Virus record (IMG/VR): IMGVR_UViG_3300020578_000017
Span: 52,450 to 116,449 of that record
Source of the DNA: a virus
Reading direction: 5' to 3' (one strand)
DNA: 64,000 bases
This document shows, piece after piece, positions 27,401-46,143 of this stretch. The notes below the pieces were generated by a model that did not search any database, was not told the origin of the DNA, and saw only the letters and a list, made by a program, of their open reading frames with translations. Both the position numbers and the translations under genes were made by a program. Each line of letters opens with the position of its first letter. Position 1 is the first letter of the stretch.

Positions 27401-27541
27401 TTTTACAAATAATGTACCAGACTTTACTGAACCAGTATTAGATTCTAGGGTAAAAACGAAATCTGAAGGTTGCCAGGTTCCGTTTGTAGTCAAGATTTCT
27501 ATCTCAACTTCTGGTAAGTTATAAACGTACTCAAATGGCAT
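24443..27541 (-). CDS. Fibre-like virion protein (pair A, member 1)
   Basis: The protein has 1,032 residues. The N-terminal ~75 residues (EYVYNLPEVE ... GTLFVKTG) closely match those of the next gene upstream (27562-31143), suggesting a shared virion-attachment domain. The body is Ser/Thr/Gly-rich with short strand repeats (LSGSGNL-like, TVSGNLYVSGN), expected of trimeric beta-structured fibres. A GIYQAGTGDRNYFAG segment near 25,950-26,000 recurs in the fibre at 34596. The C-terminal ~300 residues look globular and may be the receptor-binding or knob part. Confidence 0.75.
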   Translation of the reverse strand: MPFEYVYNLPEVEIEILTTNGTWQPSDFVFTLESNTGSVKSGTLFVKTGANSTNIIASVVNFNQSGSAVFEVCDPTTTKDSGLVSDLPSGDDTYANFGTAIRPTHTSLYVGGFESLRATSSGIRIGDTAGNPSALLHVYEDNTSGSGLLIQQVGSGDAKIRFTNSNTWSFGIDGSDTGKLKICSSDSLGTSTLISADTSNKLAIGSDSVLAFHSSSDLFPNSSPKLEVRTGSGSTAYTEGITLRHVDTGTSGTLFLLFKHKDESSSDNSNKMTGVESKVSGSSIRLNIINQGTTGISIASGQVNAVSSFVFESTTTFSGNSTFTTEMKGLSGSSFINSGVTLLSGATSTHDLTVNGVLSTPSGLNFSGAIDALNGVHTANDYGFSFSTSGNLVTAPGNPINTTVLLVQNIRTNLSDNFVGGYAAQAVSGLFVRTAPESGTSSLSGSVAISAQAIYDSNNETSFAGGDYPDYKAINFLARSPNAPTRSPLGTQSPIYSYGLYIESQDVGVVSGGWGIYQAGTGDRNYFAGDIDLAGDLSVSGTLNFGSDITVSGNLYVSGNQYLKPYTNTILEATADNQEWSIDLTNQDERVGCYWRVWSDASGGAGSTILSTRGDTLRVGVLTSNPTTDFDVSGSGLFRSNLEVSGTIEAGEALSIGQADISIPFTAARTYSSDDNNNVVDFIKFFRRTSGVTVLSGIGLSMQFYAQNSASEDTLSGSFETNFNTITNGDETSQIILKTISNGVENSGLTVGDKIDSAMPIQVNKFPSTTLSINDTTGTQHSFFIQALDANGFAVGASNIVRTENYPNARTFSWLPVAGASSYRVWASFNNNLASISIGGVYNVLFTGTNTSYVYPDVAPFYTGTKRIFSYHSGTITAGLVKTKDVIKNYIQGIDYSQTFQSSEILVSSTSWTTITYAEVQVRDETTLEENQFVRSTFNGRVDMSANNIVAFMRFYYEFRDSSYTLVTSGQTFLPPINAGGLLNGYYPITLDEIIPVTEPGYLKIYAQARKTDSSPSGTANIYGTIIIQKLN

Positions 27542-27561
27542 TTAAATCGTACCTAATCACT

Positions 27562-30500
27562 CTACATTGGTGCCCCGCCACCACCGCCCATACCTGTATT
27601 TATGAGGGCAGAAGCAGAACCATAATTTATAGAATCAGTAACTCGAACAAAGAAGTATACAGTTTGACCGTTATATGATGAAACGTCTGTTTGTACAGAA
27701 GGTGGGAAGCTAAAAGGTGGCGTTGTCCAAACTGCACCTGTTGGAGTACTTGAAGTACCTATCTGATACTGATAAGAAGATGCACCAATTACTTGATCCC
27801 ATGTAGCATATCCAGTTGAATTAAACGTGACATTTGTTGGGGCACTGTAGTAAGGCCTTGCACCTGATATGGATGAACGGCTTGAAGGAGTATTGTTTCG
27901 CTGTACGATAAAATATAAAAGCTGTCCCTGGGATACCAGCATGCTTGAACCCATAACTGGAGGACCGGAATACTGAGTATTTTGCCAAGAACCTTCGTTA
28001 GGTGTAGAGGAAGAAGCAAACTGATATTGGTACAGAACATCTGGGTTGTAGGTCCAATTTCCGGTAGCAGAAGATAATCCTACATTTATAGATAACCCAC
28101 TAACTACAGAGGCAGGCTTTAATGCGCTTGTAAAGTTATAGAAGCTACCACCTGAAGCTCTTACAAAGAAGTAAAAAGTTTGACCTTCTGTGATGCTTGC
28201 CAAACTCACCGTTTCTGGTGGGTTGTCGGTAGCTGTCCACATGCCCACCATAGGGGCTGAAGTGGTTGATACTTGATACTCATAAGACCCATTAGCCCCA
28301 GGTATGATATCCCAGTTTGCCTCTCCTGTTGCAGGATCTATTGTTACGACTGGCATAGTATCGTCATCATATGATGCTGTAGCCGTAAGTCCGCTGGCCC
28401 TTACATGGAAGTATACTTGAGCACTAGAAGCATACTGAGAAAGATTTAACGATATAGGCTGTATTCCTATTACGGCTACCCAAGCCATAGCATTCGGTGA
28501 TGTGCTTTGATTGACTTGATATTGATAAGACAATCCAGAAATAGGTTCATTCCAAGTTGCCGTTCTGCTATCAGTATCTAAAAGAACACTGGTAAGGGCT
28601 GAAGGCATTGAGGAAGAAGTTGAAGCGTAAACTTCAGAATTTGCAACTTTTACATGTAGGTATACGGTCTGCCCTGCAGAGAAGCTGTCTAACATAACGT
28701 TGTTAGATTCTGTAGGCGTAGTAACCCAAACCTCTGGCGCTATGTCTGCATCTGAGTTCGTTGTGACTTTATACTTATAACCACCAACAAGATGAGAACC
28801 TGGTACCATATCCCAGCTTATACCGCTAGTATATGTATTAAACACTAGATTAGTTGGAACACCAGCCGCTACAGCACTATCGCTTCCATAATTATTTGCG
28901 GAACCAGATACCCGGACAAAAACGAATACCTCATCACCGGCATTACTAGATATATCTTCGCTTGAATAAAGATTTGTTGTTGTTGTCCAGTCTTCATCTA
29001 AAATCTCAGGAGTAGAACTAGTTGAGTATTGATACTGATAGTTTGTCGCATCTGTTACTGCAAACCAGCTTGCCTCACCATCAACAGTTAATATAATTCC
29101 AGTAGGCGCTGAAAAAGGTATATATGTCGAGTCAAAACTGGAATTGGTAGAGTCTGTAACTCTTACATGTAAGTAAGCTACTGTTCCGGTAAACCCAGAT
29201 AGACTTAGCCCAGTTACACTAGTAGTGACTACTTGGGAACTCCAGGTACCTGTTGCTGTAGAAATAGTAGAAAGCTGATACTGATAACCAGGAGCGTTAG
29301 TTACTGATGACCAAGATGCATCGCCGTTTTCGTCAAGAACGACGGTAACCGGAGCAGCAAAGTTTACATATACAGAATCGCTGCTATAACTAATTCCACC
29401 AAATGACTTTACAAAGAAATAAACGGTTTGACCGCCAAAAGAACTTATATTTTCACTTATTGTCAAATTAGAAGTTACTGACCAATCATTTTCATCAGGA
29501 ACTGCGTTATTTGTAAACTGATATTGATAACCAGATGTTGCCTCTGCAACAGAAGACCAAGATGCCTCACCATCTTCACTAAGTGTAACTGTATCTGGTG
29601 GGGTAACATAAACAGTTTGCATCTCATTTTGTTGCTTTATTCTAAAATGTAGAAGAGCAGAATTTCTGTCTGAATCAGAACTTCCGCCATCTTGAGCAAT
29701 AAGTAAAGTTAAAGAAGTAAAATTATCTTGCTCGGCAATAGATAAGTTGACTAATGGAGCATAAAAAGTGTCTGTATTTATACTGGAACCCGTACTTATG
29801 TAAGATGTGAAGCCATCTGCTAATACAGTGCCACTAGATATAATATTATTTTTTACAAGTAAGCCGCTTGTTGTAGTCAATCCTGAAACATTCAAGTTTC
29901 CTAATAAGTTGGTATTTCCAGTAACCGTAAGAGTAGAGCCAAACTCTATAGGTAGATTAGGATCAATTCCGCCAAGATTACTTGCCGTAATGTTGCCTTC
30001 TATAGTAACGTTGCCAGTTACAGTTACATTACCCTGGACATCTAAAGTATTTAATACGGTTAGACCACTAGTTGTAGTCAGCCCAGAGACAACAAGTGTT
30101 GACTCTAAAGTTGTCGCACCAGATACTTCAAGATTAGACTCTAAAACTGTTGAACCAGATACATTTAGAGTAGAACCTAGAATAATAGGTAGACTTGGAT
30201 CAAAAGGTGCTGATATACTATCTGAAATAATATTTCCAAGAACAGTCAAGTCACCCGTTACAGTTACGTTTCCAGTAACATCAACATCATTCTGTACAAC
30301 TAACCCACTTGTTGTAGTAAGCCCTGAAACTACTAAGGTACTATCTAAGGTAGCCGAGCCAGATACCTCAAGAGTATTTCCAAGAATAACTGGTGAGTTT
30401 AAATCGATAGTAGTGCCTAAATCGGCATAAATCATGCCACCAACAATCAAATCACCAGAAACATATGCATTACCTTGAATATCTAAATCACCAGAAGATA

Positions 30501-31143
30501 TTAGTTCACCTAAAGTTGAAGTTCCTGTTACTGATAAGCTGTTCTGAACAACAAGACCAGATAGAACTGTATCGCCAGATACTACTAGAGAGTCTGTAGT
30601 TGTAGCACCATCTACTGAAATACCACCTAGTAAACTAGATGAACCTGATACAGTTAGTGTACTCCCTAAAACAAATGGGTTTTGAAAGTTTAAATAACTG
30701 CTTAAATCTACAGTTAAGCTCCCACCTACAACCAAATCACCAGATAATACAGTATTTCCTGTAACTGCTAGGTTATCTAATGTGGTTCCAGTAAGAGTTA
30801 CCCGTACTTTTTCTGTATCATTAACATAGATAGAAGTAAAATCATTCCTGGAGGCTACTAAAAAGTCTGCACTAGTTTCTATACCAGACACAGGTAAACT
30901 TGATACTAAAGAATTTCCAGTATTAAGTACTGAATAGGAAGCTCCACCATTATTTGAGAAATTTAGTACGGAAGAAACAACATTGGTATTATCTTCGCCA
31001 ACTTTAATAAACAGAGTTCCTTTTTTAAGAAGCTCTGTATTTGTGGTTACTGAAAATATAAAGTCTTCAGGATTCCAATCACCAGATACAGAAAGTACTT
31101 CTAACTCTACTTCTGGCGAATTGTAGACATATTCGTTGGGCAT
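27562..31143 (-). CDS. Fibre-like virion protein with FN3-like repeats (pair A, member 2)
   Basis: The protein has 1,193 residues. The N-terminal domain is like the 24443 gene. Residues ~110-440 are short 'STL-VSG' strand repeats like those in the 31179 protein. From ~residue 510 there are about eight FN3-like modules, each with a G/SYQYQ strand, an S-x-x-STP loop and a Y-F/H-V-R/K strand. It ends in a Gly-rich GMGGGGGAPM tail. FN3-type modules are common on virion surfaces and may bind carbohydrate. The ATG is at 31143. Confidence 0.75.
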   Translation of the reverse strand: MPNEYVYNSPEVELEVLSVSGDWNPEDFIFSVTTNTELLKKGTLFIKVGEDNTNVVSSVLNFSNNGGASYSVLNTGNSLVSSLPVSGIETSADFLVASRNDFTSIYVNDTEKVRVTLTGTTLDNLAVTGNTVLSGDLVVGGSLTVDLSSYLNFQNPFVLGSTLTVSGSSSLLGGISVDGATTTDSLVVSGDTVLSGLVVQNSLSVTGTSTLGELISSGDLDIQGNAYVSGDLIVGGMIYADLGTTIDLNSPVILGNTLEVSGSATLDSTLVVSGLTTTSGLVVQNDVDVTGNVTVTGDLTVLGNIISDSISAPFDPSLPIILGSTLNVSGSTVLESNLEVSGATTLESTLVVSGLTTTSGLTVLNTLDVQGNVTVTGNVTIEGNITASNLGGIDPNLPIEFGSTLTVTGNTNLLGNLNVSGLTTTSGLLVKNNIISSGTVLADGFTSYISTGSSINTDTFYAPLVNLSIAEQDNFTSLTLLIAQDGGSSDSDRNSALLHFRIKQQNEMQTVYVTPPDTVTLSEDGEASWSSVAEATSGYQYQFTNNAVPDENDWSVTSNLTISENISSFGGQTVYFFVKSFGGISYSSDSVYVNFAAPVTVVLDENGDASWSSVTNAPGYQYQLSTISTATGTWSSQVVTTSVTGLSLSGFTGTVAYLHVRVTDSTNSSFDSTYIPFSAPTGIILTVDGEASWFAVTDATNYQYQYSTSSTPEILDEDWTTTTNLYSSEDISSNAGDEVFVFVRVSGSANNYGSDSAVAAGVPTNLVFNTYTSGISWDMVPGSHLVGGYKYKVTTNSDADIAPEVWVTTPTESNNVMLDSFSAGQTVYLHVKVANSEVYASTSSSMPSALTSVLLDTDSRTATWNEPISGLSYQYQVNQSTSPNAMAWVAVIGIQPISLNLSQYASSAQVYFHVRASGLTATASYDDDTMPVVTIDPATGEANWDIIPGANGSYEYQVSTTSAPMVGMWTATDNPPETVSLASITEGQTFYFFVRASGGSFYNFTSALKPASVVSGLSINVGLSSATGNWTYNPDVLYQYQFASSSTPNEGSWQNTQYSGPPVMGSSMLVSQGQLLYFIVQRNNTPSSRSSISGARPYYSAPTNVTFNSTGYATWDQVIGASSYQYQIGTSSTPTGAVWTTPPFSFPPSVQTDVSSYNGQTVYFFVRVTDSINYGSASALINTGMGGGGGAPM

Positions 31144-31178
31144 AGTATCTACTAAACCATTCTAAAGGCAATTAAAAA

Positions 31179-34100
31179 CTAAATAAAAATATCAGAAAGG
31201 TCTATTGTAGTTGTTTCTGACTCTATCGCTAAACCTGGTCTTACTGTTGAAAAGTCATGATTAGGAGAACTGAAATCTAAGACATCGATGTTTTCTGCTG
31301 GAACAACAACTGAATCTGATCCATAGTTTGGAGATGCAGCTACTCTGACAAAGAAATACCAAGTTTGCCCTATGTTTTCAGAAATATCAAAAAATGCTGT
31401 GAGATTTGAAGTGACAGACCAGCCTAATCCAGGTGTACTATCCGTAGAGTACTGATACTCATAACTACTTGCCCCAGAAACCGCAGACCAACTAGCGTTA
31501 CCTAAATCGTCAAGATTTACATTAGAGGGTGCGGGATAGTTTACAAAGACATACTGAGATGTATAAGAAGATGCCGGAACTGTTCTTACAAATACATAAA
31601 ATGTTTGTCCTATATAGCCTGAAATATCTTCAAATGCCTGTAATAACATGGTAGATAACCAAGCGTTTTCATCTGGTGTAGAAGAAGTGGAAAACTGATA
31701 TTGATAACCAGAAGTTGCCCCGGACACAGCAGACCATTGAGCTAATCCTGCTTCACTTAAAGTCAGAGTTCCTGGTGGCTCTGGTAATGCGTCAGCAAGA
31801 GTGTTCTGCTGCTTGACTCTAAGTTGAATGATGGCAGAGTTATGGTTGTTGCCGTCACCTCCACCATCTTGCGAAACCATAAGAGTCATGCTTATAAACT
31901 CACCTTGATCGTCAAGAGAAACCTCAACTACTGGTGCGTAGCTAGCACTTGTACCGACTGAACCACCTGATCCTATATAAGAGTTTAGGCCTTTTGTATA
32001 TAAGTTACCGCTTACAATAGCATCTGAACTTACAAAGATACCACTAGTACTTGTGTCACCCTCAACTAAAAGACTTTGTCTTAATGTTGTAGCACCTGAT
32101 ACTTCTAATGTACTACCTAACACTAAAGGTAGACTTGGATCAAAAGCTGCTGGAATACTATCTGAAATAATACTTCCTAAAACAGTGAGATCGCCTGTTA
32201 CCGTGACATTACCCGTAACATCAACATCGTTTTGAACAACTAAACCACTTAAAGTAGATAGACCAGAGACTACTAATGTATTATCTAAAGTTGTAGCACC
32301 AGAGACTTCAAGGGTTGACCCGAATACTAAAGGTGAGTTAAGATCAATAGTGCTACCTAAGTCAGCAAATATCTGACCATCAACTGTTAGATTACCGGTA
32401 ATTGTTACATTACCTGTTACGTCAACATCATTCTGTACAACTAATCCGCTTAGCGTAGACAGACCAGATACGAACAAAGTAGTGTCTAATGTTGTCGATC
32501 CAGATACTTCAAGAGTTGATTCAAGTATCGTAACACCACTTACGTTTAGCGTTGAACCTAGCGTCAATGGGAGACTTGGATCAAACGATGCTGGAATACT
32601 ATCTGAAATAATACTTCCTAAAACAGTAAGATCCCCTGTTACCGTGACATTACCCGTAACATCAACATCATTCTGTACAACTAATCCGCTTAGCGTAGAC
32701 AGACCAGATACGAACAAAGTAGTGTCTAATGTTGTCGATCCAGATACTTCAAGAGTTGATTCAAGTATCGTAACACCACTTACGTTTAGCGTTGAACCTA
32801 GCGTCAATGGGAGACTTGGATCAAACGATGCTGGAATACTGTCTGAAATAATACTTCCTAAAACAGTGAGATCGCCTGTTACCGTGACATTACCCGTAAC
32901 ATCAACATCGTTTTGAACAACTAAACCACTTAACGTAGATAGCCCAGAAACAACTAATGTACTATCTAATGTTGTCGATCCAGATACTTCAAGAGTTGAT
33001 TCAAGTATCGTAACACCACTTACGTTTAGCGTTGAACCTAGCGTCAATGGGAGACTTGGATCAAACGATGCTGGAATACTGTCAGAGATGATGTTGCCAA
33101 GGACAGTAAGATCCCCTGTTATAGTAACACTACCTGTAACATCAACATCATTCTGTACAACTAATCCGCTTAGCGTAGACAGACCAGAAACTAATAATGT
33201 ACTGTCTAAAGTAGTTGCTCCAGATACTTCTAAAGTATTACCTAATACAACTGGGGAGTTAAGGTCAATAGTGGTACCTAAATCGGCATAAATCATGCCC
33301 GCAACAGTCAAGTCACCTGAGATATAAGTATCACCTTGAATATTCGTGTCATGCTGAACTGTCAAACCACTTGTTGTGGTCAATCCGGATACGACTAAAG
33401 TAGTGTCTAATGTTGTAGAACCAGATACCTCAAGAGTTGACTCTAGTATAGTTACGCCTGATACAGTTAATGTAGACCCAAGAGTCAAAGGTAGACTTGG
33501 ATCAAACGCTGCTGGAATACTATCTGAAATAATATTACCTAGAACTGTCAGGTCACCTGTTATTGTCACATTACCAGTAACGTCAACATCATTCTGTACA
33601 GTCAACCCACTCAGAGTAGATAGACCTGAAACAAATAATGTACTGTCTAAGGTTGTAGCGCCAGATACTTCTAAAGTAGATTCTAATACTGTAACACCAC
33701 TTACATTAAGTGTTGAACCTAACGTTAGAGGAAGACTAGAATCAAATGCTGCTGGAATACTATCTGAAATGATATTACCAAGAACGGTTAGATCGCCTGT
33801 GACAGTAACATTACCAGTAACATCTACATCGTTCTGTACAACTAAACCGCTAAGAGTAGATAAGCCAGATACTACTAATGTTGACTCTAATGTAGTAGCC
33901 CCAGATACTTCTAAAGTTGAACCAAGAACTAAAGGTAAACTTGGATCAAAAGTCGCAGCTATATTATCTGCAATAACATTACCACTGACAATAAGGTCAC
34001 CAGTTATTGAAACACTGCCTTTTACATCTAAATTTGTCTCTACAGTAACACCTGTGTTGATTACCAGGATATTCTGTTCATCTGTACCATCGAAAGACAC

Positions 34101-34559
34101 TACAGCAAAGCTCGTAGTACCGGTAGGTGTTCCTACCCTATACTCAAGGTTAGAAGAACTTACAGCACCAGATGGGACAAACTGAACATAGCTAAAGGTG
34201 TTGTTGTTGGACCGGAAAAGCTTAAGATATACATCAGAGTTATTAGAAGAAGTAATCTCAACTCCACCCTGGCTTTCGACAAATAATCCTGTACCGCTTT
34301 GAACAGTTAAAGACCCCTTTATGGTAACTGAGTTAGCTAAAGAACCACCAGTTCCGCTAAAAGTAAGACTGTTACTGGTAGTAAAGTTACCGGTAGAGTC
34401 AAGAGTAAATATCTTTAGTGCAGCATCTAATGTACCTATTTGAGCATTAGACGCTATCCTAAGGCCATGAATAGAAGCCTCGCCAGCAACATCATCACTG
34501 GGACGAAGTTTTCTGTGAGTGTGGTTTATAAAATAAACTTGATCTAGTTCATTTGCCAT
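31179..34559 (-). CDS. Fibre-like virion protein with 80-residue tandem repeats (pair B, member 1)
   Basis: The protein has 1,126 residues. The N-terminal ~110 residues (VYFINHTHRKLRPSDD) match the next gene upstream (34596). The centre holds eight repeats built on GLxVQNDVDVTGNVT and LTVLGNIISDSIP, mostly 80 residues long, some nearly identical in DNA. A ~100-residue region (SQDGGGDG ... LRVKQQN) and two FN3-like modules follow, homologous to the 27562 protein. It is probably a trimeric fibre whose length depends on repeat number. The C-terminal tip is short and acidic. Confidence 0.77.
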   Translation of the reverse strand: MANELDQVYFINHTHRKLRPSDDVAGEASIHGLRIASNAQIGTLDAALKIFTLDSTGNFTTSNSLTFSGTGGSLANSVTIKGSLTVQSGTGLFVESQGGVEITSSNNSDVYLKLFRSNNNTFSYVQFVPSGAVSSSNLEYRVGTPTGTTSFAVVSFDGTDEQNILVINTGVTVETNLDVKGSVSITGDLIVSGNVIADNIAATFDPSLPLVLGSTLEVSGATTLESTLVVSGLSTLSGLVVQNDVDVTGNVTVTGDLTVLGNIISDSIPAAFDSSLPLTLGSTLNVSGVTVLESTLEVSGATTLDSTLFVSGLSTLSGLTVQNDVDVTGNVTITGDLTVLGNIISDSIPAAFDPSLPLTLGSTLTVSGVTILESTLEVSGSTTLDTTLVVSGLTTTSGLTVQHDTNIQGDTYISGDLTVAGMIYADLGTTIDLNSPVVLGNTLEVSGATTLDSTLLVSGLSTLSGLVVQNDVDVTGSVTITGDLTVLGNIISDSIPASFDPSLPLTLGSTLNVSGVTILESTLEVSGSTTLDSTLVVSGLSTLSGLVVQNDVDVTGNVTVTGDLTVLGSIISDSIPASFDPSLPLTLGSTLNVSGVTILESTLEVSGSTTLDTTLFVSGLSTLSGLVVQNDVDVTGNVTVTGDLTVLGSIISDSIPASFDPSLPLTLGSTLNVSGVTILESTLEVSGSTTLDTTLFVSGLSTLSGLVVQNDVDVTGNVTITGNLTVDGQIFADLGSTIDLNSPLVFGSTLEVSGATTLDNTLVVSGLSTLSGLVVQNDVDVTGNVTVTGDLTVLGSIISDSIPAAFDPSLPLVLGSTLEVSGATTLRQSLLVEGDTSTSGIFVSSDAIVSGNLYTKGLNSYIGSGGSVGTSASYAPVVEVSLDDQGEFISMTLMVSQDGGGDGNNHNSAIIQLRVKQQNTLADALPEPPGTLTLSEAGLAQWSAVSGATSGYQYQFSTSSTPDENAWLSTMLLQAFEDISGYIGQTFYVFVRTVPASSYTSQYVFVNYPAPSNVNLDDLGNASWSAVSGASSYEYQYSTDSTPGLGWSVTSNLTAFFDISENIGQTWYFFVRVAASPNYGSDSVVVPAENIDVLDFSSPNHDFSTVRPGLAIESETTTIDLSDIFI
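32461..33180 (-). repeat. Three near-identical 240-bp tandem repeats inside the fibre gene
   Basis: Units 32461-32700, 32701-32940 and 32941-33180 each encode 80 residues. Long stretches are identical between units (for example the 60 bases at 32521, 32761 and 33001), while other parts differ at a few synonymous sites. More diverged 240-base units continue on both sides to about 33900. Confidence 0.9.
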
Positions 34560-34595
34560 ATCTTATCTATCTCTAACATGTAATTTAATTGTATA

Positions 34596-37500
34596 CTAAT
34601 CAGAAAGATACCAAGTATTTCCAATTAAGACACACTTTAACCATTTAAATATCTTCAAGGACTTACCAACAGATAGAGCAGGATAAACCCCAACTGAACT
34701 ATGATCCAAAGGTGCAGATTGAGCATCCCATGGTATGTTGTCAGGATATGCTTCAGTAGAACTAGGCATTTCAATGTAATTTCCAGTAATATATGTAGCA
34801 ACTGGTGCACTTATATTATAAAACTTAAAAAATTGTTTTCCGTTAATGGTAAAATTATAAGAACTTTGTTCTAAAAATAGGTTGTATTCTGTACCGTTTA
34901 AAACATCATCATATGAAGGTAAAAATATAGTGTTTGAATAATAATTTGGAAATTTATAGTTTACATTGGATTCAAAAGTAGGATAAGCATTCGTAGCATT
35001 TGGTGATAAAAATAAGTGATTTTTTTTATTTTTGTTTATTGTAAATTGAAACTCTTCCCCAACATAACTCAATGGGTCACTTGAAGGCTCATTAAAGCTA
35101 TATGTTTCAAAGTTATTATGAAAAAATACATCATCGATTAGATGTGTACTACCGCTTACCGTAACTCCACTATGAAAAACAGCGTCGGTATTTACACTTA
35201 AACCGGATACTGGTGTTATGGTGTTTATGCCAACTTGAGATCCAGTAACCAGAGCTAATGAAACGTTTCCGCTAACTTTAATATTGTCTCTAAAAACTGT
35301 ACCTAAAGCAACATCTACTGGCCCCTCTAAAACAGAACCGAATGGTAAGCCTATACCTAATAAAGCTGATGAATCTGTAGATAAATAAGAAGAAAACTCT
35401 ACATTCAAAGCTGAACCTGAAATTAATGTATCAAAGAATCCATTTTTAGCATATATTCCGCTATTAAAAGTAACGTCTTTTTCAAAAGTAGTTTGACCCG
35501 CAAAGTAGTTTTGGTCATTTATCCCTTCTTGATAAATGCCATAGCCTTCATCTATTATTGCTGTGGATTTCTGAGGTTCAATGTAAATACCATAAGAATG
35601 TATTTCACCCGTGTGAGAACCACTTTTATTAGCTGCAATAGGACTTGCTGCTAATAAAGCTATTCCAGTAAAATTAGCTGAAGGTGATGAAGTAAACTTT
35701 GAATCTGAAGAAGATGAGTTTAATGCGTTTACATAAATACCAACTGTCTTATTTGTGAAGTTTTTAGATCCTGTCTCTATCGCTAACTTTATTGAAAGTC
35801 CAGTAGCCTTAGTTAACTGGGCAAACGGAAAACTTGGCGTTATTGAAGATGGGTTATTATATAAACTTAGGATCGTACCAGAATATTCAGAAATTGTATT
35901 TTCTAAGTTCCAGGTAGTATAAATCTCATGTGATACAGTATTACTACTTGTTAGCGTAGTAAAAAAGCTAGAATTACCCGTAACTCGTAAGCCATTATCA
36001 ACCGAAAATAGATATGAAGTACCATTGAAGTAGTTATGGTCTGTCGATGATGCTTGATAAATACCAATACCAGATGTAACTATTGACCCAGTTTTCTGAG
36101 GTTCAATGTATAAACCATAGGCAATTACAGAACCAGTAGTTCCTGCTTGTCTTGCTGTCACCTTAGGCGATAAAGCTACAAAAGAAATACCACTAAAACT
36201 ATCATTTCCATTAAATGCTGTTGTGGCAGTTGAACTTGCTATGGATTGAGCAGATACCGCTACCATTAGCTCTGACCTGGATGTTGTACCAGAGTTTGGA
36301 GTTAACCCAACATATAATCCATTAACTTGTTTATCATCAGCACCATTATTAGTAGAAGAATCTTTCTTTATAGAAAATACTGTATAGCTTTCTGGTACAT
36401 TCCCAAAAGAGTTAAGCTCTGGCCTGGTTACAAAATGATAGGCAGAAGGATTAGCGTTTATATAACCGTCTAAAATCTTGAAGAAGAAAGGACCATTTGT
36501 TTCTTTTAATAGATTACTGCCACTAATAATCCCGCTAACAAAAGTATTTCCACTTATTGTGGTGTTTCCAGAAATACTTACATTGCTTAAAAAGCTAGCA
36601 GACCCTCTTTGTGTAAGGGCACCAGATAATCCAATGGTTGCACCGCTAGCAACTAACGTGTTAACGACACTGGCGCCAGAAACATTTAGGTTTTGCTGAA
36701 CATTGACAGATGTGCCTGTTGCTGTAAGCGTATTTACAGTAGAAGCTCCACTAGCGCTAAACGAAGAACCTGTAACGTTTAGAGTATTAAAAGTAGCTGA
36801 CCCGCTTACATTAGCAAACGAACCAGTTACATCTAATGTATTTAATGTCGTGTCGCCTAGTACACCGAAGTCACCATCAAGCGTACTGCTTCCTCTGATT
36901 ACAAGTGATTCTAAAGTAGTTAGCCCTGTGACACTTAATGTGCCAGTAATGCTAACGTTATTTTTTACTGTTAAACCAGAAGCTAGAAAATCTCCTGTAA
37001 CATTTACTGTATTTAAAGTACTCAATCCAGATACGTTAGAGTTACCAGAAACAAAGCTATTTCCAGAGACGTTTGTATCCCCTAAAAAGGTAGCGTTACC
37101 TCTTTGAGTAAGCGTACCGGATATAGCAGCATTACCACTTATCGTAGTACCAGATTTAATAGTTACTAAACCTGCTGCAGATACGTTCAAGTAATCAGTG
37201 GTAGAAGTTCCATTATATGAAAGAAGAGAGAAACCAGTGCTACCGTAGTCAAAGCCAATGCTAAACTTGACATTTGCGCTACTCAAAGATCCGCTTGGTA
37301 TAAAGTTGACAACAGCCCGCTCAGAATTTGTAAAGCGAGTCAGGTCAATCAAAGTATCTGATGAGTCATCACCAATTACTCTTATGCCTTGTTGCGCTCT
37401 GACAAATAAACCGGATCCGCTTTCTACAGAAAGACCACCCTCTACCTTGACTAGATTACTCGTTGCTCCAGTTTCGCCTTTGAAAACCAGGCTGTTGCTG

Positions 37501-37682
37501 GTCTTGATATTTCCGGTACTGTCTAGTCTAAATAGCTTAAGAGCTGCATCTGCTGTTCCTATTTGAACATTAGATGCAACAGACAAACCATGAACGGAAG
37601 CTTCACCCTGAAGATCATCGCTGGGCCTTAGCTTTTTGTTTACGTGGTTCGTAAAATATACGGGATCTATTTCTTTAGACAT
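34596..37682 (-). CDS. Fibre-like virion protein (pair B, member 2)
   Basis: The protein has 1,028 residues. The N-terminal domain is shared with the 31179 protein (KLRPSDD, QIGT-DAALK, LDSTGN). Short strand repeats (VSGNSNVSGLSTLN and similar) occupy residues ~170-380. Two copies of a GIYQ ... NYF(A/N)G block lie near 36,050 and 35,510, related to the 24443 fibre. The C-terminal ~200 residues are unique and aromatic-rich, a likely distal knob. The ATG at 37682 is preceded by a hairpin at 37690-37717. Confidence 0.75.
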   Translation of the reverse strand: MSKEIDPVYFTNHVNKKLRPSDDLQGEASVHGLSVASNVQIGTADAALKLFRLDSTGNIKTSNSLVFKGETGATSNLVKVEGGLSVESGSGLFVRAQQGIRVIGDDSSDTLIDLTRFTNSERAVVNFIPSGSLSSANVKFSIGFDYGSTGFSLLSYNGTSTTDYLNVSAAGLVTIKSGTTISGNAAISGTLTQRGNATFLGDTNVSGNSFVSGNSNVSGLSTLNTVNVTGDFLASGLTVKNNVSITGTLSVTGLTTLESLVIRGSSTLDGDFGVLGDTTLNTLDVTGSFANVSGSATFNTLNVTGSSFSASGASTVNTLTATGTSVNVQQNLNVSGASVVNTLVASGATIGLSGALTQRGSASFLSNVSISGNTTISGNTFVSGIISGSNLLKETNGPFFFKILDGYINANPSAYHFVTRPELNSFGNVPESYTVFSIKKDSSTNNGADDKQVNGLYVGLTPNSGTTSRSELMVAVSAQSIASSTATTAFNGNDSFSGISFVALSPKVTARQAGTTGSVIAYGLYIEPQKTGSIVTSGIGIYQASSTDHNYFNGTSYLFSVDNGLRVTGNSSFFTTLTSSNTVSHEIYTTWNLENTISEYSGTILSLYNNPSSITPSFPFAQLTKATGLSIKLAIETGSKNFTNKTVGIYVNALNSSSSDSKFTSSPSANFTGIALLAASPIAANKSGSHTGEIHSYGIYIEPQKSTAIIDEGYGIYQEGINDQNYFAGQTTFEKDVTFNSGIYAKNGFFDTLISGSALNVEFSSYLSTDSSALLGIGLPFGSVLEGPVDVALGTVFRDNIKVSGNVSLALVTGSQVGINTITPVSGLSVNTDAVFHSGVTVSGSTHLIDDVFFHNNFETYSFNEPSSDPLSYVGEEFQFTINKNKKNHLFLSPNATNAYPTFESNVNYKFPNYYSNTIFLPSYDDVLNGTEYNLFLEQSSYNFTINGKQFFKFYNISAPVATYITGNYIEMPSSTEAYPDNIPWDAQSAPLDHSSVGVYPALSVGKSLKIFKWLKCVLIGNTWYLSD

Positions 37683-37727: not shown

Positions 37728-38309
37728 CTAAGAACCGCTACAAGCTGCAATCAAAAAGTTATGAAATCTTTCTCGCGACAGCAAGCCCTTGCTCTTGATG
37801 TCAATATCAAGCTCACATAAACCGTTGAGAATCTTAACTATCCTCTTTAACGAGTATCCGCTGATATACTTTTCTAGATTAGAAAACTCAAAGTGGCTTA
37901 TTCCCATCGACTCTCTAATGTGATGATCTTCCAGGTTCTTGTTTTTCTTTACGATAAAAACAAAAGCTTTGTCTAGCCACTTGAAGTAATAGTTTGCGAA
38001 AGATAAAAGAAATCCTTCATCCTGTATTTTATTGAACTCTTCCAGGCAAGCTTTGGTATTTTGCCCACCAATAGATTTAGTAAGCTTAAGGTATGTATCG
38101 AAGCTTCTCTTTACGAATAAATCTTCGAGGTCTCTAATATTGATTGATGTATCTATATCAAGAAGAAGATCTATCTTGTCTGCTGCTTTCTGCAGAAGAA
38201 CATCATTGTTTCCTATAAAAGAGACAATCTTTTCAAGTTGGTATTCTGGTAACGTTCTACCCAACTCAGATAGCTTGTTACGTAATAACTCTTTTGGCGC
38301 TGCACTCAT
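37728..38309 (-). CDS. DNA polymerase III delta (HolA)-like clamp-loader subunit
   Basis: The protein has 193 residues. It matches the C-terminal collar half of HolA: a helix set with AxxY-FKWLDKAFVF, then HIRESMGISHFEF, a LKRIVKILNGLCELDIDIKS stretch and the last helix, as in E. coli delta (IHPF ... LDLAIKSG). No AAA+ N-terminal part is visible, so it is shorter than bacterial delta. It overlaps the delta-prime-like gene by 4 bases, which supports the call. Confidence 0.7.
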   Translation of the reverse strand: MSAAPKELLRNKLSELGRTLPEYQLEKIVSFIGNNDVLLQKAADKIDLLLDIDTSINIRDLEDLFVKRSFDTYLKLTKSIGGQNTKACLEEFNKIQDEGFLLSFANYYFKWLDKAFVFIVKKNKNLEDHHIRESMGISHFEFSNLEKYISGYSLKRIVKILNGLCELDIDIKSKGLLSRERFHNFLIAACSGS

Positions 38310-39175
38310 AACGGTACTGAACCTAGCTTAAGCTTTAGGATTAAAGTCTTTAGATGAAGATCTTTATTGTAAAAGTTAGGGACATTTTTAATCAAGTCTC
38401 TAAAGCATATGATTGCAAAAACTGCAAAGTCAAAGCTATACCTATCTAGCCAGTTTTTATACTCGTCGATAAGGTCCGTGTTTACAACTAAATCTGTCTG
38501 TCCCTTGAAAACTTTAATTAAGTCATAAAGTAAGTTTAGTCCAATAGAGACAAACTCTTCCGTATTGTCTTTTAGCTTTTCTGGAACTGTTAGATTATCT
38601 TCAGTAATAAACTTTACTTCACTTAAAAATGACCAGACAAGATTACGGCTTTCGATAAAGTTACCAGAAGCGACTTCATCTGCTGTTTTGAATGAACCGT
38701 TTGCTATTTTTGCATAATGCTCATTCCAAAGATTGTACTTGTTTTGAAGATAGCTTGAAATAGATTCTTCTGTCAGCAAGTTGAACTCAAGCGTAACGCA
38801 CCTGGAGTAGATCGGATAAGATACTTTATCAGACTCTTTAGCGGTAAGTATGAAGTAGACTCCAGGCTTTGGATCTTCTAAGCTTTTTAGTAAGATAGAC
38901 GCTGATGGTCCTGTAAGCTTATCTACCTCGGCTATTAAGAAAACTGCCGAGGTATTCTCACGGTATAGCTTTAGTAGCTCTCTAACTTGATTGACTTTGA
39001 AGGAACCGTCTTCTGGATAGAACTCATAAATATTAAGAGAAATATGCTTGGCAAGCTCTCTTGCTGTAGTTACTTTTCCAACGCCATCTGGTCCGCAAAA
39101 CATCATCGTAGGAGGAAGATTAGTAATCCTGCTCTCTAAGAATTGTTTTACTTCGTTTTGTCCTAATATATCCAT
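38306..39175 (-). CDS. Clamp-loader delta-prime (HolB)-like AAA+ protein
   Basis: The protein has about 289 residues. Walker A is GPDGVGKVTTA, with Val where the Thr/Ser should be, as in non-hydrolysing delta-prime subunits. A KLTGPSASILLKSLEDPKPGVYFIL segment (the conserved N-x-L-L-K-x-L-E-E-P motif) follows, then a sensor-like YPIYSRC (SRC). Delta-prime completes the AAA+ ring with DnaX (8385) and delta (37728). The ATG is at 39175; a TTG at 39181 overlapping the upstream TGA is also possible. Confidence 0.85.
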   Translation of the reverse strand: MDILGQNEVKQFLESRITNLPPTMMFCGPDGVGKVTTARELAKHISLNIYEFYPEDGSFKVNQVRELLKLYRENTSAVFLIAEVDKLTGPSASILLKSLEDPKPGVYFILTAKESDKVSYPIYSRCVTLEFNLLTEESISSYLQNKYNLWNEHYAKIANGSFKTADEVASGNFIESRNLVWSFLSEVKFITEDNLTVPEKLKDNTEEFVSIGLNLLYDLIKVFKGQTDLVVNTDLIDEYKNWLDRYSFDFAVFAIICFRDLIKNVPNFYNKDLHLKTLILKLKLGSVPL

Positions 39176-39177
39176 AA

Positions 39178-39831
39178 TCAAAACAAGAACCTTGAAGGGC
39201 CGTTAACGCAGAGACTCTTGACTCTCTCAATATTATCATAGACCTCACAGTTACCCTTCAATGGGCAGAAGTTGCACTTACCTGTAACTTTGACACTGTA
39301 CTCACCTTTTGCTAGCCATGATGAAATACGCTGTATTATCTCAAAGTTTTCTACCGGAGGTTCGACTGACAAATGTTCTGTTCCAGTAGTCAGCCAGGCT
39401 CTGTCTGCCTTAACACCTAAATCTCTAAGAGCTTGTAAGGCTACACAGATAGATAGTAAATGATTATCTTTTATGTTTTTTGGCAAACTCTTCAGAAAGA
39501 ATATAGGCTCAACTAAACCACTGACGACCCTTACTGCGAAGCAGTTGACAAACACAGACAAGCTCTTGCTATAAAGCAAGACTTGTGAATCTTCGTCGTC
39601 ACCACCAAAGAAATAAGGTTCGTTGTCCCATAAGTTCTTGTTGCACACATTGTGCAGCATATCCATATAGGCAACAAGGTCCTCTCTATTGAGGACCTTG
39701 TCTTCTTCTGAAGCGTTAACTTCGTTTCTTAGTCTATAGAATTCGTGGCAGTAGTAATAAGCCAGGAGTTCATCTATTCTAAAAACCAAACGACTCACTA
39801 GTCTCCAGTTCATAGCTAAAGTAAAGTTCAT
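39178..39831 (-). CDS. Cas4-like Fe-S protein with degenerate nuclease core
   Basis: The protein has 217 residues. A Cys near the N-terminus (C28, YYYCHEFYRL) and C186, C189, C195 in CNFCPLKGNC match the Cas4/AddB [4Fe-4S] layout, with a further C208. The nuclease core seems eroded: the FFLKS region before NHLLSICVALQAL keeps the Lys but lacks the usual acidic residues. It probably binds Fe-S and DNA without cutting, or is an adaptor for the neighbouring clamp loader. The ATG at 39831 overlaps the upstream gene by ~53 bases; ATG 39813 is an alternative. Confidence 0.6.
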   Translation of the reverse strand: MNFTLAMNWRLVSRLVFRIDELLAYYYCHEFYRLRNEVNASEEDKVLNREDLVAYMDMLHNVCNKNLWDNEPYFFGGDDEDSQVLLYSKSLSVFVNCFAVRVVSGLVEPIFFLKSLPKNIKDNHLLSICVALQALRDLGVKADRAWLTTGTEHLSVEPPVENFEIIQRISSWLAKGEYSVKVTGKCNFCPLKGNCEVYDNIERVKSLCVNGPSRFLF

Positions 39832-40072
39832 CAATGCCTGAAATCGCAGTCAAAACATCTCTTACTGCATCTGCTTCATAATCCTGAAAAGGCTCTGGGT
39901 CCTTTACGATATGAAGACCTCGCTTTTTACTTGTACGAGCAAGCAAACGGGAGTCATCACCAAAATCAATATCTAGATTGTCAATTACTTTCTGAAGTTC
40001 CTTTGTTGTATCAAAGTCACCTACAACTTTAATCCAGATAGGCTCTTCAGTGTTGTTATCATTATACGACAT
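39779..40072 (-). CDS. Small hypothetical protein upstream of the clamp-loader genes
   Basis: The protein has 97 residues from ATG 40072; a TTG start at 40114 would add 14 residues, but neither has a good SD. It contains a ferredoxin-like alternation of strands and helices (IWIKVVGDFDT, LYFSYELET). Its 3' end overlaps the Cas4-like gene start. No family is recognised. Confidence 0.55.
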   Translation of the reverse strand: MSYNDNNTEEPIWIKVVGDFDTTKELQKVIDNLDIDFGDDSRLLARTSKKRGLHIVKDPEPFQDYEADAVRDVLTAISGIDELYFSYELETSESFGF

Positions 40073-40140: not shown

Positions 40141-40572
40141 ATGATAAAGAATTTTCTAGCAACTGCTGTACTTCTTTGCTCTACCTACAAACCTGTTGAA
40201 TATCCTAAAAATATGGAAAGTCCACATTTTCATGTACAGGAAAATGGAGATGGCATCAAGTACTGGATAGTTCTAGAACCAAAGTGTGTAGTAGAAACCG
40301 TATACACCAAAGGCGATCCAATAGGAACTGAAATTACAATACTTGACCCAGAAAATACCGATCAAAAATCGATAGTTAATTTTGTCAACTCTATCGAAGG
40401 TATCGATCAAGAAACTTATCCTATGACCTTTGCCGGTATGAATGAAGATCATTCTCAAATGTATACGCTAACAAGCAGCGAACACATACTTTTGTGGAAA
40501 CGTAATCCTTCTACCGAAAAGATAGAAAAGATTATCATTGTCTACCACAAACAGAATGAGTTACACTTTTAA
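40141..40572 (+). CDS. Hypothetical protein with a possible signal sequence
   Basis: The protein has 143 residues. The N-terminus (MIKNFLATAVLLC) is a short basic-hydrophobic segment that could be a signal peptide; the Cys context does not fit a lipobox. The rest is beta-rich and acidic (IKYWIVLEPKCVVE, TILDPENTD). It is a lone plus-strand gene overlapping the papain-like gene convergently by 12 bases. Function is unknown. Confidence 0.6.
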   Translation: MIKNFLATAVLLCSTYKPVEYPKNMESPHFHVQENGDGIKYWIVLEPKCVVETVYTKGDPIGTEITILDPENTDQKSIVNFVNSIEGIDQETYPMTFAGMNEDHSQMYTLTSSEHILLWKRNPSTEKIEKIIIVYHKQNELHF

Positions 40573-41343
40573 AGCGTAACCTTCGATAAACATAAACTTG
40601 AACAGGTAGTACGGTAAATATCCGTAACCATGATCTCCCCAGCTTTTGCTCCAGGAGTTTCTGATAGTAAACCTTTGAAATAGGTCATCATACCCGACGA
40701 TAGTCACGGCGTGCTGGCCTATTTTCTTTCCATTTTTATCAGGAGGTGAAATCTCACCTGTCCGATAAACAAAAACCCCAAACAGGCTCTCATACACATC
40801 TAACAAGACAGCTACTGGTAGACCTTCTACCAAGCAAGCTTTGACTTCTTCTAACCTTTCAAGTCTGTAAGCTTTTTTAACTTTTGCAGATCTTGCTAAC
40901 ATTTCTATTTCATCGCTGCCATAAGATTGCAAAGTAGCTAAATTGTGTTCACCTAATCTTTCAGGACAGCAACCTTTAGTTCTTAGAACTTCAATTGCGT
41001 CTACAAAACTGGTAACTGTATTTCTTGAGTCAATGAAAAGGGCATTTTTGTCTTTATCATAAACATACAAAGAAGAAAGTCTATAGCTTTTTTCTGGGTA
41101 AGCCTTCTTAAAAACAAACTCAAGACAACCACTAACAAGAGAAATACCGATAGAAGATTCAATTGGACCTTGATCCATGACTTCTTCAAAAAGATTGGAA
41201 TCTCTTAGATCTACCTTCAAGGGTTTTTTGGCTAGAACCTTGAAAATATTTCTAAAAGCATATCTGTCAGTAAGTAGTAATCTCTTTAGATCTCTCTTAC
41301 TAGCTGAAGCTTTTACAGTATACACAGTATTTTTAGGTTTCAT
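40561..41343 (-). CDS. Papain-fold (C1A) protein with Ser in the catalytic Cys position
   Basis: The protein has 260 residues. The C1A layout is plain: VDLRD then DQGPIESSIG (57-66), where the usual G-S-C is replaced by E-S-S64. His211 in QHAVTIVGYDD and Asn229 in IRNSWSKSWGDHGYGYLP are intact. There is no propeptide and no signal peptide. The Cys-to-Ser change (codon TCT) would make it a poor cysteine protease, so it is either an inactive binder or a serine-based enzyme as in silicateins. It is preceded by a ~390-base region with a putative promoter. Confidence 0.85.
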   Translation of the reverse strand: MKPKNTVYTVKASASKRDLKRLLLTDRYAFRNIFKVLAKKPLKVDLRDSNLFEEVMDQGPIESSIGISLVSGCLEFVFKKAYPEKSYRLSSLYVYDKDKNALFIDSRNTVTSFVDAIEVLRTKGCCPERLGEHNLATLQSYGSDEIEMLARSAKVKKAYRLERLEEVKACLVEGLPVAVLLDVYESLFGVFVYRTGEISPPDKNGKKIGQHAVTIVGYDDLFQRFTIRNSWSKSWGDHGYGYLPYYLFKFMFIEGYALKV

Positions 41344-41734
41344 CTAAGAAATTAGTTTCAATAGAAACTTACTAAATTGTCAAAGTACTTTATTAGATCT
41401 TTTTATGATCTGAAAGATTTAATTTAATCACCTTACTACTAATCATACTCTTGAACGTTTTGAACTTCGTCTTCTTGCTTATCAGCTTTATCGTACTTGT
41501 TCTTATCGTCTTCGTCGTCGTCAACTTATTCGTCTTAGTTTTTTTTTAAAGTTTGATCCCTTTGGGATAATTCCAAAGTTAGATAGTTATCTACTTACTT
41601 GAATTGAAGTTCCGTGAGTAGCTGTAAGGAACGGATTGGTTTGCTTGACCGTGTACCGTAGCAATTTTCTGCTCCGTCTTCCAACTCCTTATAGGAGATT
41701 TACTGGAATCTTTTGAAAGAAATTATGAAAAAAT
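41344..41734 (-). other. Gap without a clear gene; acidic frame with three TAA codons
   Basis: No intact ORF is visible. One minus-strand frame from TTG 41684 to TAG 41439 has sensible stretches but three in-frame TAA codons (41597-41595, 41537-41535, 41528-41526). Its last 28 codons read as a very acidic peptide (VDDDEDDKNKYDKADK). A nine-A run, a small CTTTGG/CCAAAG hairpin and a TATAAG box at 41688 are also present. It could be a decayed gene or the long leader of the papain-like gene. Confidence 0.4.
41688..41693 (-). promoter_or_regulatory. Putative -10 box upstream of the papain-like gene
   Basis: TATAAG in TCTCCTATAAGGAG is on the minus strand. The CTCCTATAA context equals that of the recA box at 19171. 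It would give a ~340-base leader. Confidence 0.45.
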
Positions 41735-43778: not shown

Positions 43779-43832
43779 ATGTTATATCGAAATAACTTTA
43801 TTCAAGGACTAGCTTACCACGCCGGAGCCTAA
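43779..43832 (+). CDS. Leader peptide of the asparagine/pyrimidine operon
   Basis: A 17-codon ORF (MLYRNNFIQGLAYHAGA) is preceded by AAGG 8 bases before the ATG. Its stop codon (43830-43832) lies in the loop of the following terminator, and its last codons form the 5' arm of that stem. A ribosome finishing this peptide would cover the stem and block it. The leader is U-rich (TTATAT, CTTTATT), which would slow polymerase at low UTP. Codons 5 and 6 are two consecutive Asn codons. It is too short to be found by length cut-offs. Confidence 0.65.
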   Translation: MLYRNNFIQGLAYHAGA

Positions 43833-43850
43833 TGGCTCCGGCTTTTCTTT
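43821..43850 (+). terminator. Attenuator terminator in the pyrimidine operon leader
   Basis: GCCGGAGCC (43821-43829), loop TAAT and GGCTCCGGC (43834-43842) form a 9-base-pair GC-rich stem followed by TTTTCTTTT. It is active only in the plus direction (no U-tract on the minus strand) and sits upstream of, not after, the plus-strand genes. The next SD (AGGAG) begins 14 bases after the stem. This is the expected layout of a transcription attenuator. Confidence 0.88.
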
Positions 43851-43870
43851 TAACCAGGAGAATTTTATTA

Positions 43871-44908
43871 ATGAATACACACCAGCAAAAAGTAGCCCTA
43901 TTTAAAATGGCAAGCTCAGCCCTCAAGGGTGCGAGAAAATACCTAGATAGCCATAACTTCCATGATGTATCATTACAAATGCCTCACATCGTAGGCGTAA
44001 CTGGCGCTTGTGAGAATGTCAGTACTCTATTTAAAGTCGATTATTTTGGCAAGGAAGCTTTTTTGGCTCAGAGTAACCAACTTTACTTGGAGCTTTGGAC
44101 TCCACATTTGTTTAACGTATCTTGTTTAGTTCGTTCTTTCCGTGCAGAGCCAGATGTAGATGCCAGGCATCAAACTGAGTTTGGCCTACTTGAATTAGAG
44201 CTACTAGGCAACCTGGACCTTCTAATCGAAAGAATTAGTGGTACTGTGAGAGCAGCTTGTAATGAGGTTGCTTGGAATCACGGTGAAGAGCTAAATAATC
44301 TTTTTGGTCGCAATCCAAAAGATATCACAGACCTAAAATTCCAAAGAGTCACTTATGTTGAAGCTATTGAACTACTTAATCAAGATAAGTTCCCAGAACT
44401 AAAGTTTGGTGACGACCTAAAGGCAGATCACGAGCTACGTTTAACTGAGCTTCTAAACGGCCCAATCTTCATTACGCATTACCCCAAGGAAATCAAGTTC
44501 TTCAATATGAAGGCAAACGCTCAGAACGATAGACTAGTCAACTCAACAGACTTGATTCTTCCCTTGTCTGGAGAGTCTGCTGGCGCCGCTGAGCGTGAGA
44601 CTGACGTTTTCCAGATTTGCGAGAAGCTTCTCAGCAACAGCATGTACCGAATCCTCAAGGAGACAACCAATGTCCAGGACGAAGACTTCGACTGGTACCT
44701 CAACGCCCACCTTGAGGAGCCCCAAGAAAACGTATTGAAACTTTACCGCGAGCATATAATCAATGGGACTTCTCCCTTGAAGGCGAAGAAGATTCCACTA
44801 CACAGTGGCACGGGTATGGGCATGGATCGAATCATGCAGTTCATCATCGGTTCATCTGATATTCGTAAAGCAAGAGTATATCCCAGAAATGCAGCCTGCC
44901 TCGAATAA
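43871..44908 (+). CDS. Asparaginyl-tRNA-synthetase-like enzyme without anticodon domain (likely asparagine synthetase)
   Basis: The protein has 345 residues. It is a class II synthetase catalytic core of the Asp/Asn type: motif 2 region LVRSFRAEPDVDARHQTEFGLLE and motif 3 GTGMGMDRIMQFIIG with the YPRN end. The N-terminal OB anticodon-binding domain (~100 residues) is missing. Archaeal AsnRS paralogues of this shape make asparagine from aspartate (AS-AR, Pyrococcus abyssi); the same activity is likely here. The ATG at 43871 follows AGGAG. The second half (from ~44500) is visibly GC-richer than the first. Confidence 0.8.
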   Translation: MNTHQQKVALFKMASSALKGARKYLDSHNFHDVSLQMPHIVGVTGACENVSTLFKVDYFGKEAFLAQSNQLYLELWTPHLFNVSCLVRSFRAEPDVDARHQTEFGLLELELLGNLDLLIERISGTVRAACNEVAWNHGEELNNLFGRNPKDITDLKFQRVTYVEAIELLNQDKFPELKFGDDLKADHELRLTELLNGPIFITHYPKEIKFFNMKANAQNDRLVNSTDLILPLSGESAGAAERETDVFQICEKLLSNSMYRILKETTNVQDEDFDWYLNAHLEEPQENVLKLYREHIINGTSPLKAKKIPLHSGTGMGMDRIMQFIIGSSDIRKARVYPRNAACLE

Positions 44909-45584
44909 GTTAGCTGAAGCAATCAAATACAAGAAAACACATCTTTGTATCGGAATTGATCCTCCAGAGAAGTGTTATCCTTCAAAGATTGTCGATATAG
45001 TTAAAAATACCAAAGATTATTGTGTAGCCTATAAGATTAATTTGGCTCACTTTATTTCTAAGACTTCGTTTTACGAGCTATATCAAATAATTTCAGAAAT
45101 TACATCAATATGTCCTGAAAATGTTCTCATTCTTGACGGCAAGTTTGGTGACATTGGTTCAACAAATGATTACTATGCAAAATTGAATCAAGTAAAACAT
45201 ATTGACGGACTAACTTTAAACCCATACTGCGGCATAGATAACTTAGAGCCCTTCTTTAAACAGGAGGGCTCGCTCCATTTTGTATTAACAAGAATGTCTC
45301 AACCTAGTTTTGTACAGACTAGAGAAGTTTGTACAGAAATAGTAAAACAAACCAAAGGTCGTTGTGGTTATGTTTTAACCACAAGAGAAGAAGACTACTT
45401 CGACCTGGTTTGTGATCTTGCAGAAGATAGTTTTCTTCTTCTAGTTGGTATTGGTGCTCAAGGAGGAAAGATTAGCTTAATGAACAAGATTAAGCATAAT
45501 AACTTCATCTTTAACGTTAGTAGACCCTTCTTTGAAGATGAAAACGTAGTTAACACAGCAAAGTTTTATGCCGGAATCAAATAA
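44889..45584 (+). CDS. pyrF: Orotidine-5'-phosphate decarboxylase
   Basis: The 231-residue enzyme converts OMP to UMP. The active-site set is complete: D24 (CIGIDP), K49 (AYKIN), D83-x-K85-x2-D88 (LDGKFGDIGSTN), the NPYCGID strand, GIGAQGG and R212 (VSRPF) for phosphate. I chose ATG 44889, which overlaps the upstream gene by 20 bases; the frame is open further upstream but only inside that gene. It is translationally coupled to both neighbours. Confidence 0.92.
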   Translation: MQPASNKLAEAIKYKKTHLCIGIDPPEKCYPSKIVDIVKNTKDYCVAYKINLAHFISKTSFYELYQIISEITSICPENVLILDGKFGDIGSTNDYYAKLNQVKHIDGLTLNPYCGIDNLEPFFKQEGSLHFVLTRMSQPSFVQTREVCTEIVKQTKGRCGYVLTTREEDYFDLVCDLAEDSFLLLVGIGAQGGKISLMNKIKHNNFIFNVSRPFFEDENVVNTAKFYAGIK

Positions 45585-46143
45585 ACCACCAGCTATTAGA
45601 ATGTTTGAAACCTTTGGGGTTATAAACAAAGGTCACTTTCAACTAAGCTCCGGTAAGCATTCAGATACTTATCTACAATGTGCAAAGTTAGATGCTAGTC
45701 CTTATGCACTACTTTCTATTGCGGGTAAGTTATTCGACCAAAACCTTATGTGGAAGCATGATGTAACCCATGTAGTAGCTCCTGCTATGGGAGCGGTTCT
45801 TTTTGGTTATACTTTGGCACTAACCATGTCAAAAACATTTATGTACCTGGAGCGTGAAAACGGTGCTCTTACTTTTAGAAGAGGATTCAGCCTCCCTGAA
45901 GGTGCAAGAGTTTTATGCATAGAAGATGTAGTCACAACTGCAAAAACAATGAATGAAGTTGTGAGCATTGTAAACTCTTATGGTGCAAAAGTTGTAGATA
46001 GAGTTTGTATCGTCAATAGAAGTAATGACGATAGCTTAAAGAGCTTTGTAAAGCTAAAAGTAGAAACATGGGACCCAGAAGAGTGCCCCATGTGTGAAGA
46101 AGGCAAGATACCGGCTAGTTATCCGGGAAGTCGTAAGATCTAG
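45568..46143 (+). CDS. pyrE: Orotate phosphoribosyltransferase
   Basis: The 191-residue enzyme joins orotate and PRPP to OMP, the step before PyrF. Motifs are SSGKHSDTYLQC near the N-terminus, the PRPP loop LCIEDVVTTAKTM (117-128), ENGALTFRRGF and a C-terminal ECPMCEEGKI ... YPGSRK. The ATG at 45568 overlaps pyrF by 17 bases. The end overlaps the convergent gene by 29 bases. Together with PyrF it completes UMP synthesis from orotate. Confidence 0.92.
   Translation: MPESNKPPAIRMFETFGVINKGHFQLSSGKHSDTYLQCAKLDASPYALLSIAGKLFDQNLMWKHDVTHVVAPAMGAVLFGYTLALTMSKTFMYLERENGALTFRRGFSLPEGARVLCIEDVVTTAKTMNEVVSIVNSYGAKVVDRVCIVNRSNDDSLKSFVKLKVETWDPEECPMCEEGKIPASYPGSRKI

Follow-up and report, generated by a model that had tools for sequence, protein, structure and literature searches.

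The window analysed here is a stretch of 64,000 nucleotides, part of a virus record of 116,449 bases, and it holds a gene for a papain-fold protein of 260 amino acids that runs from 41343 to 40561 on the minus strand, ATG to TAA. The plus-strand reading of this interval is full of stops, and the strand had been left out of the initial annotation. The features of the locus are:

40561..41343, minus strand: predicted xylellain-type C1A papain-fold protein, nucleophile Cys replaced by Ser64 (PF00112, 3ois, AlphaFold2, structural alignment)
41224..41343, minus strand: N-terminal extension, residues 1-40, in a propeptide-like position and of low model confidence (predicted structure, structural alignment, propeptide-motif count)
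41170..41172, minus strand: codon 58, oxyanion-hole Gln, kept (alignments)
41158..41160, minus strand: codon 62, GAA, Glu, where 211/274 homologues have Gly and 2/274 have Glu beside an intact Cys (sequence, alignment)
41152..41154, minus strand: codon 64, TCT, Ser in place of the catalytic Cys (sequence, alignments)
41014..41016, minus strand: codon 110, Val, where 272/274 homologues have Gly; aligns with the Gly-Gly-Gly-Tyr segment of cathepsin K (alignments)
40711..40713, minus strand: codon 211, catalytic His, kept (alignments)
40657..40659, minus strand: codon 229, catalytic Asn, kept (alignments)
40559..40581, minus strand: terminator-like hairpin at the stop codon, between the papain gene and ORF 40141-40572 (plus strand) (consensus match, chance frequency)

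The gene is isolated: upstream lies a 391-base gap (41344-41734), which lacks a good ORF and holds a short acidic reading ending in a stop, and on the other side is the convergent ORF 40141-40572 (plus strand), with clamp-loader genes beyond. Rfam gave no match in 41344-41734, and neither RNA families nor a tRNA were found in the window. Sites resembling promoters and terminators occur around the gene about as often as chance predicts (8 versus 7.4 and 1 versus 1.2, respectively). Its synonymous codon score of 0.138 is typical of the phage (42 genes of the window have a mean of 0.104 with a standard deviation of 0.054), and the true coding frame outscores the other five. The open 260-codon frame, together with the codon usage, shows that this is a resident coding gene, and says nothing of selection after the loss of the Cys. 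There is no second papain copy in the 116-kb record. Based on its portal, terminase, clamp-loader and UvsX-like genes, and on terminase matches to phages of 485 kb (31.8% identity) and 309 kb (28.3% identity), we infer that the record is a fragment of a jumbo-type phage.

Sequence and predicted structure place the protein in the xylellain-type bacterial C1A papain family, with the papain fold of two domains. Residues 41-241 match Pfam PF00112 (Peptidase_C1; E 9e-12, 46 bits against a cut-off of 20.7), while NCBIfam assigns no family to the 260-residue protein. The best PDB sequence match is 3ois, xylellain (E 9e-17), which a profile of the protein and 78 homologues retrieves at 3e-89. The AlphaFold2 model built with 78 homologues has a mean pLDDT of 86.6 and a pTM of 0.87, and in structural comparison (Foldseek and VIA-align) xylellain again ranks first (E 4.4e-20; 3ois_B with Z 28.2, rmsd 2.9, 243 aligned residues and 28% identity). 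The fit to C25S mutants of cathepsins K (5ja7, Z 22.8) and S (1glo, Z 22.3) is about as good as that to active cathepsins, and thus a Ser at this position need not disturb the papain fold. Xylellain itself (the Xylella fastidiosa cysteine protease) is of the same length class, has an N-terminal extension, and belongs to a short bacterial C1A family. It differs in having the Cys, where the phage protein has Ser64 and has also lost the WPY motif, G110, P142 and G180.

The initial annotation had described the protein as lacking both a propeptide and a signal peptide, and had taken this to indicate cytoplasmic action. The first point is doubtful, because the N-terminal part, an extension of some 40 residues as in xylellain and other homologues, overlies the propeptide residues of procathepsins and the N-terminus of xylellain in the structural alignment. 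Residues 1-30 are modelled with low confidence (pLDDT of about 45-57). The phage protein has neither of two propeptide motifs, G-[WYF] and D-x-R-D, which occur together and in the set order in 75/249 homologues, the first being present in 148/249 and the second in 156/249; this count is too loose to weigh. A signal peptide is indeed lacking, as it is in phage homologues that carry the Cys, so that its absence is nothing special.

At the catalytic position, where homologues read D-Q-G-x-[LIV]-G-S-C, the phage protein reads D57-Q-G-P-I-E62-S63-S64, with the last three codons being GAA TCT TCT. The replacement of the catalytic Cys by Ser in a papain-fold phage protein, the E-S-S64 reading in place of G-S-C, and the retention of His211 and Asn229, all of which the initial annotation had reported, are borne out by the codons, the family and structure matches, and the alignments. 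In a first homologue set, all 171 sequences covering the column have Cys (174 examined, 3 without the region), and in a larger non-redundant set Cys is found in 273/273 covering sequences among the matches listed (274 examined, one gap). The larger set has His at 211 and Asn at 229 in 274/274 each, and Gln at 58 in 273/274 (one gap). These sequences were drawn from bacterial genomes and plasmids as well as from phages and viral contigs, each search giving its best 80 matches, with further homologues from tblastn in phage and plasmid records (14 records taken in) and a profile search of related phage records. Left out were L006, L007 and L009 (no covering frame, table 11), the repeats L267, L268 and L271, and identical or contained sequences. 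The search patterns were built on the His and Asn motifs alone and no search demanded Cys, so that the absence of Cys would not by itself have hidden a Ser form. As the collections may omit records very close to the window, there may be close relatives, and also rarer Ser forms, beyond the matches listed. Given Cys in every covering homologue, the alignments indicate that Ser64 is a derived change, and among the sequences searched it is known only in this protein. Of what an active C1A peptidase requires, the protein has the His, the Asn and the oxyanion Gln, along with Trp231 and Trp235, and lacks the Cys. Cys73 was considered as an alternative nucleophile and rejected, since in the model it lies nine residues on in the same helix (64-81), and hence presumably on the opposite face.

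The claim of the initial annotation that all surrounding C1A motifs are kept proved too strong. Six of the 24 columns conserved at 95% or more in 169 homologues are changed (C64S, G110V, P142G, G180L, G210Q, G232S), whereas the other homologues depart at a mean of 0.64 of these columns and only 3/169 reach 6 or more. The Gly-Gly-Gly-Tyr segment of cathepsin K lines the S2/S3 pockets, and we take the G110 column to be its substrate-lining Gly65, so that G110V would be expected to disturb the substrate cleft. However, the long-branched homologues L005, L013 and L015 depart at 8/24 near-invariant columns yet keep the Cys, and therefore drift alone is no proof of inactivity. In addition, G210Q also occurs in L005, and the G232 column is Ser in 9/274 homologues.

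We propose that the protein is probably a catalytically dead pseudoprotease that retains the papain fold and works by binding, with the Plasmodium protein SERA5 as the model. Under this proposal, a xylellain-type C1A member in a jumbo phage would have turned into a pseudoprotease through loss of the catalytic cysteine, retaining the fold, the interdomain cleft and the His/Asn/Gln/Trp frame, with a Ser64 that would be unable to serve as a thiolate nucleophile, while cleft-lining positions would have drifted. A peptide or protein would then be bound in or near the old cleft, inside the infected cell, candidate ligands being a partner, a substrate held uncut, or a protease inhibitor drawn off an active enzyme. 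As for the last of these, no chagasin-type inhibitor (PF09394) was found in the 116-kb record, which is a fragment. The loss of ordinary cysteine proteolysis would follow from the absence of the thiolate, and the protein is unlikely to cut in this way, as the initial annotation had argued from the retained fold and the Ser; the binding role and the intracellular site of action are our reading of what replaced it. In favour of a pseudoprotease are the invariant Cys of the homologues, the six near-invariant changes, the intact predicted fold, the typical codon usage and the SERA5 precedent. Against it, there is a single sequence with no close relative among those searched, the Cys-bearing L005, L013 and L015 have drifted further, two of the six changes occur elsewhere, and the record yielded no inhibitor-type partner. 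Moreover, the His, Asn, Gln and both Trp residues are kept, a pattern that long relaxed selection would not be expected to leave and that allows for some remaining chemistry.

SERA5 comes from a gene family in which several members are of the Ser type, and an older study reportedly credited its central domain with chymotrypsin-like activity (PMC3265493). According to a later study, SERA5 has a papain-like domain with Ser for the catalytic Cys, shows no protease activity, becomes active as S596C, and has a non-enzymatic role (PMC4671257). The phage protein presents the same combination, namely a Ser at the nucleophile position within an otherwise preserved catalytic frame. SERA5 is eukaryotic and is found in the parasitophorous vacuole; we treat it as an analogue only and imply no common descent of the Ser. 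The silicateins, sponge cathepsin-L homologues, share this change from Cys to Ser within a cathepsin fold, and the chimera 'Cathsilicatein' (2vhs) matches the predicted phage fold at Z 22.3. The silicatein parallel drawn in the initial annotation extends to this shared substitution and no further: in a mutagenesis study, silicatein is argued not to act through the triad (PMC6233156). Furthermore, silicateins are secreted biomineralisation proteins, whereas no biomineralisation feature was seen in the phage protein, and silica condensation by a secreted spicule protein is implausible in a phage setting.

In the sequence as it stands, then, the substitution is real, is unique in what could be searched and lies in a known family, and Ser-type papain pseudoproteases are known elsewhere. 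The movement of xylellain-type C1A genes into Caudoviricetes is already in print (PMC10380794). Among the papers listed in literature searches on phage pseudoproteases, papain pseudoenzymes and papain-family proteases of phages, none reported a pseudoprotease or papain pseudoenzyme in a phage. Papain-like peptidases are widespread in phages, where their role is largely untested, and a protein that kept the fold and dropped the nucleophile makes it possible to ask whether phage papains partly bind rather than cut. The Ser64 protein would be a prokaryotic-virus counterpart to the SERA-type pseudoproteases.

What else might account for the Ser? One option, which we hold to be unlikely, is a decaying gene: the peptidase would be dispensable in this phage, would have lost its nucleophile, and would be heading for loss with no present function. 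This is consistent with the tree, in which the Ser64 protein sits on an end branch of 2.64 (median of 0.29) and has no well-supported sister, and with the loss of 20/58 columns conserved at 75% or more (other homologues, mean of 5.8, n=169), including the W131-P132-Y133 motif, which has become G-E-H. A grouping with L005 and L013 (SH-aLRT 75) was among the joins flagged as long-branch meetings and was discarded. The gene is also patchy among related jumbo phages, with a papain-like gene in 11 of 82 records with related terminases (the best 80 of 181 viral-contig matches and two named phages), many of these records being fragments; two of the 11 (G042 and G079) are apparent copies of one contig. 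The peptidases of these phages (loci L258-L271) are of the same family and size, and their terminases are about 30-35% identical to that of the present phage; they differ in that all 12 papain-like proteins examined carry the Cys, and with about 24% identity between the Ser64 protein and the reference L269, their orthology is putative. Decay fits poorly with a 260-codon frame that is intact and phage-typical in its codons after long divergence, with a confidently predicted fold, and with the retention of every catalytic-frame residue besides the nucleophile.

A second option is that the Ser is a one-codon error or an individual mutation (TGT to TCT, a single transversion), the natural protein being a divergent but active cysteine peptidase. 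TCT is indeed one base from a Cys codon, and searches of viral_contigs and genome_contigs turned up no second, independent sequence. Exact peptide patterns for close relatives returned 13 stretches from the former and 46 from the latter, with no relative in either, and the terminase and clamp loader as single-protein queries found no sister phages, a terminase profile reaching distant jumbo phages only. No homologue among the matches listed is more than about 36% identical to the Ser64 protein, and every distant one covering codon 64 has Cys. The co-occurrence of E62 and S64 was considered as an argument against a one-base error and is weakened by L270, which reads Glu-Ser-Cys; a Glu at 62 thus needs no inactive site. 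Against an error or private mutation, which we hold to be improbable, five more near-invariant positions are altered, some of them cleft-lining, which fits a site freed from catalysis.

We give about the same low credence to a phage having converted a protease of host type, either to a new function in which a Ser nucleophile works on the intact His-Asn-Gln frame (for example as a serine acyl-transferase or esterase), or to a dedicated decoy catching host peptides or protease inhibitors in the course of infection. Least probable of all is a serine-type hydrolase or transferase on the papain scaffold, with Ser64 working together with His211 and Asn229: Gln58, His211, Asn229 and Trp231 are retained and Ser-type papain homologues exist (SERA5, silicatein), but SERA5 gains protease activity only as S596C (PMC4671257), silicatein activity is argued to be independent of the triad (PMC6233156), and G110V would be expected to disturb the substrate cleft. 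Hence we rank a binding pseudoprotease first, followed by a decaying gene, a one-base error or private mutation, and lastly Ser-type hydrolysis.

The genes around the homologues are mixed. Among eight loci scanned (L017, L018, L020, L024, L027, L028, L029 and L033), L018 has a tail protein and an amidase next to it, and a tail-fibre-like gene adjoins L020; the neighbours of L028 are a ribonucleotide reductase and a methylase, and a DnaB-like helicase gene is found near L029, so that no single role follows. In Alicyclobacillus phage MMB025 (L003:3785-6046), a papain-like domain with the Cys makes up the N-terminal part of a longer protein that carries an endolysin annotation.

Elsewhere in the window, three clamp-loader-like genes lie within 37728-39181 and 8385-9641 (minus strand), with 37728-38309 showing only a weak, sub-cut-off likeness to the C-terminal domain of DNA polymerase III delta. 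The 218-residue protein at 39178-39834 (minus strand) has no Pfam, PHROG or NCBIfam match and ends in a CxxC-x5-C cluster resembling those of Cas4/AddB-type nucleases. The cluster at 43832-46143 (plus strand) holds pyrimidine synthesis genes in a phage: an orotate phosphoribosyltransferase above the TIGR01367 cut-off and an OMP decarboxylase below its cut-off, along with an AsnRS/asparagine-synthetase-like class II synthetase (358 residues, C-terminal catalytic part; far below the NCBIfam asnS cut-off). Four consecutive proteins of 1028-1193 residues at 24443-37682 (minus strand) show partial paralogy, with identity reaching 46% across 591 residues, and look tail-fibre-like. Finally, a full GroEL chaperonin is encoded in this phage at 50445-52043 (minus strand; TIGR02348, 679.5 bits against a cut-off of 582.1).
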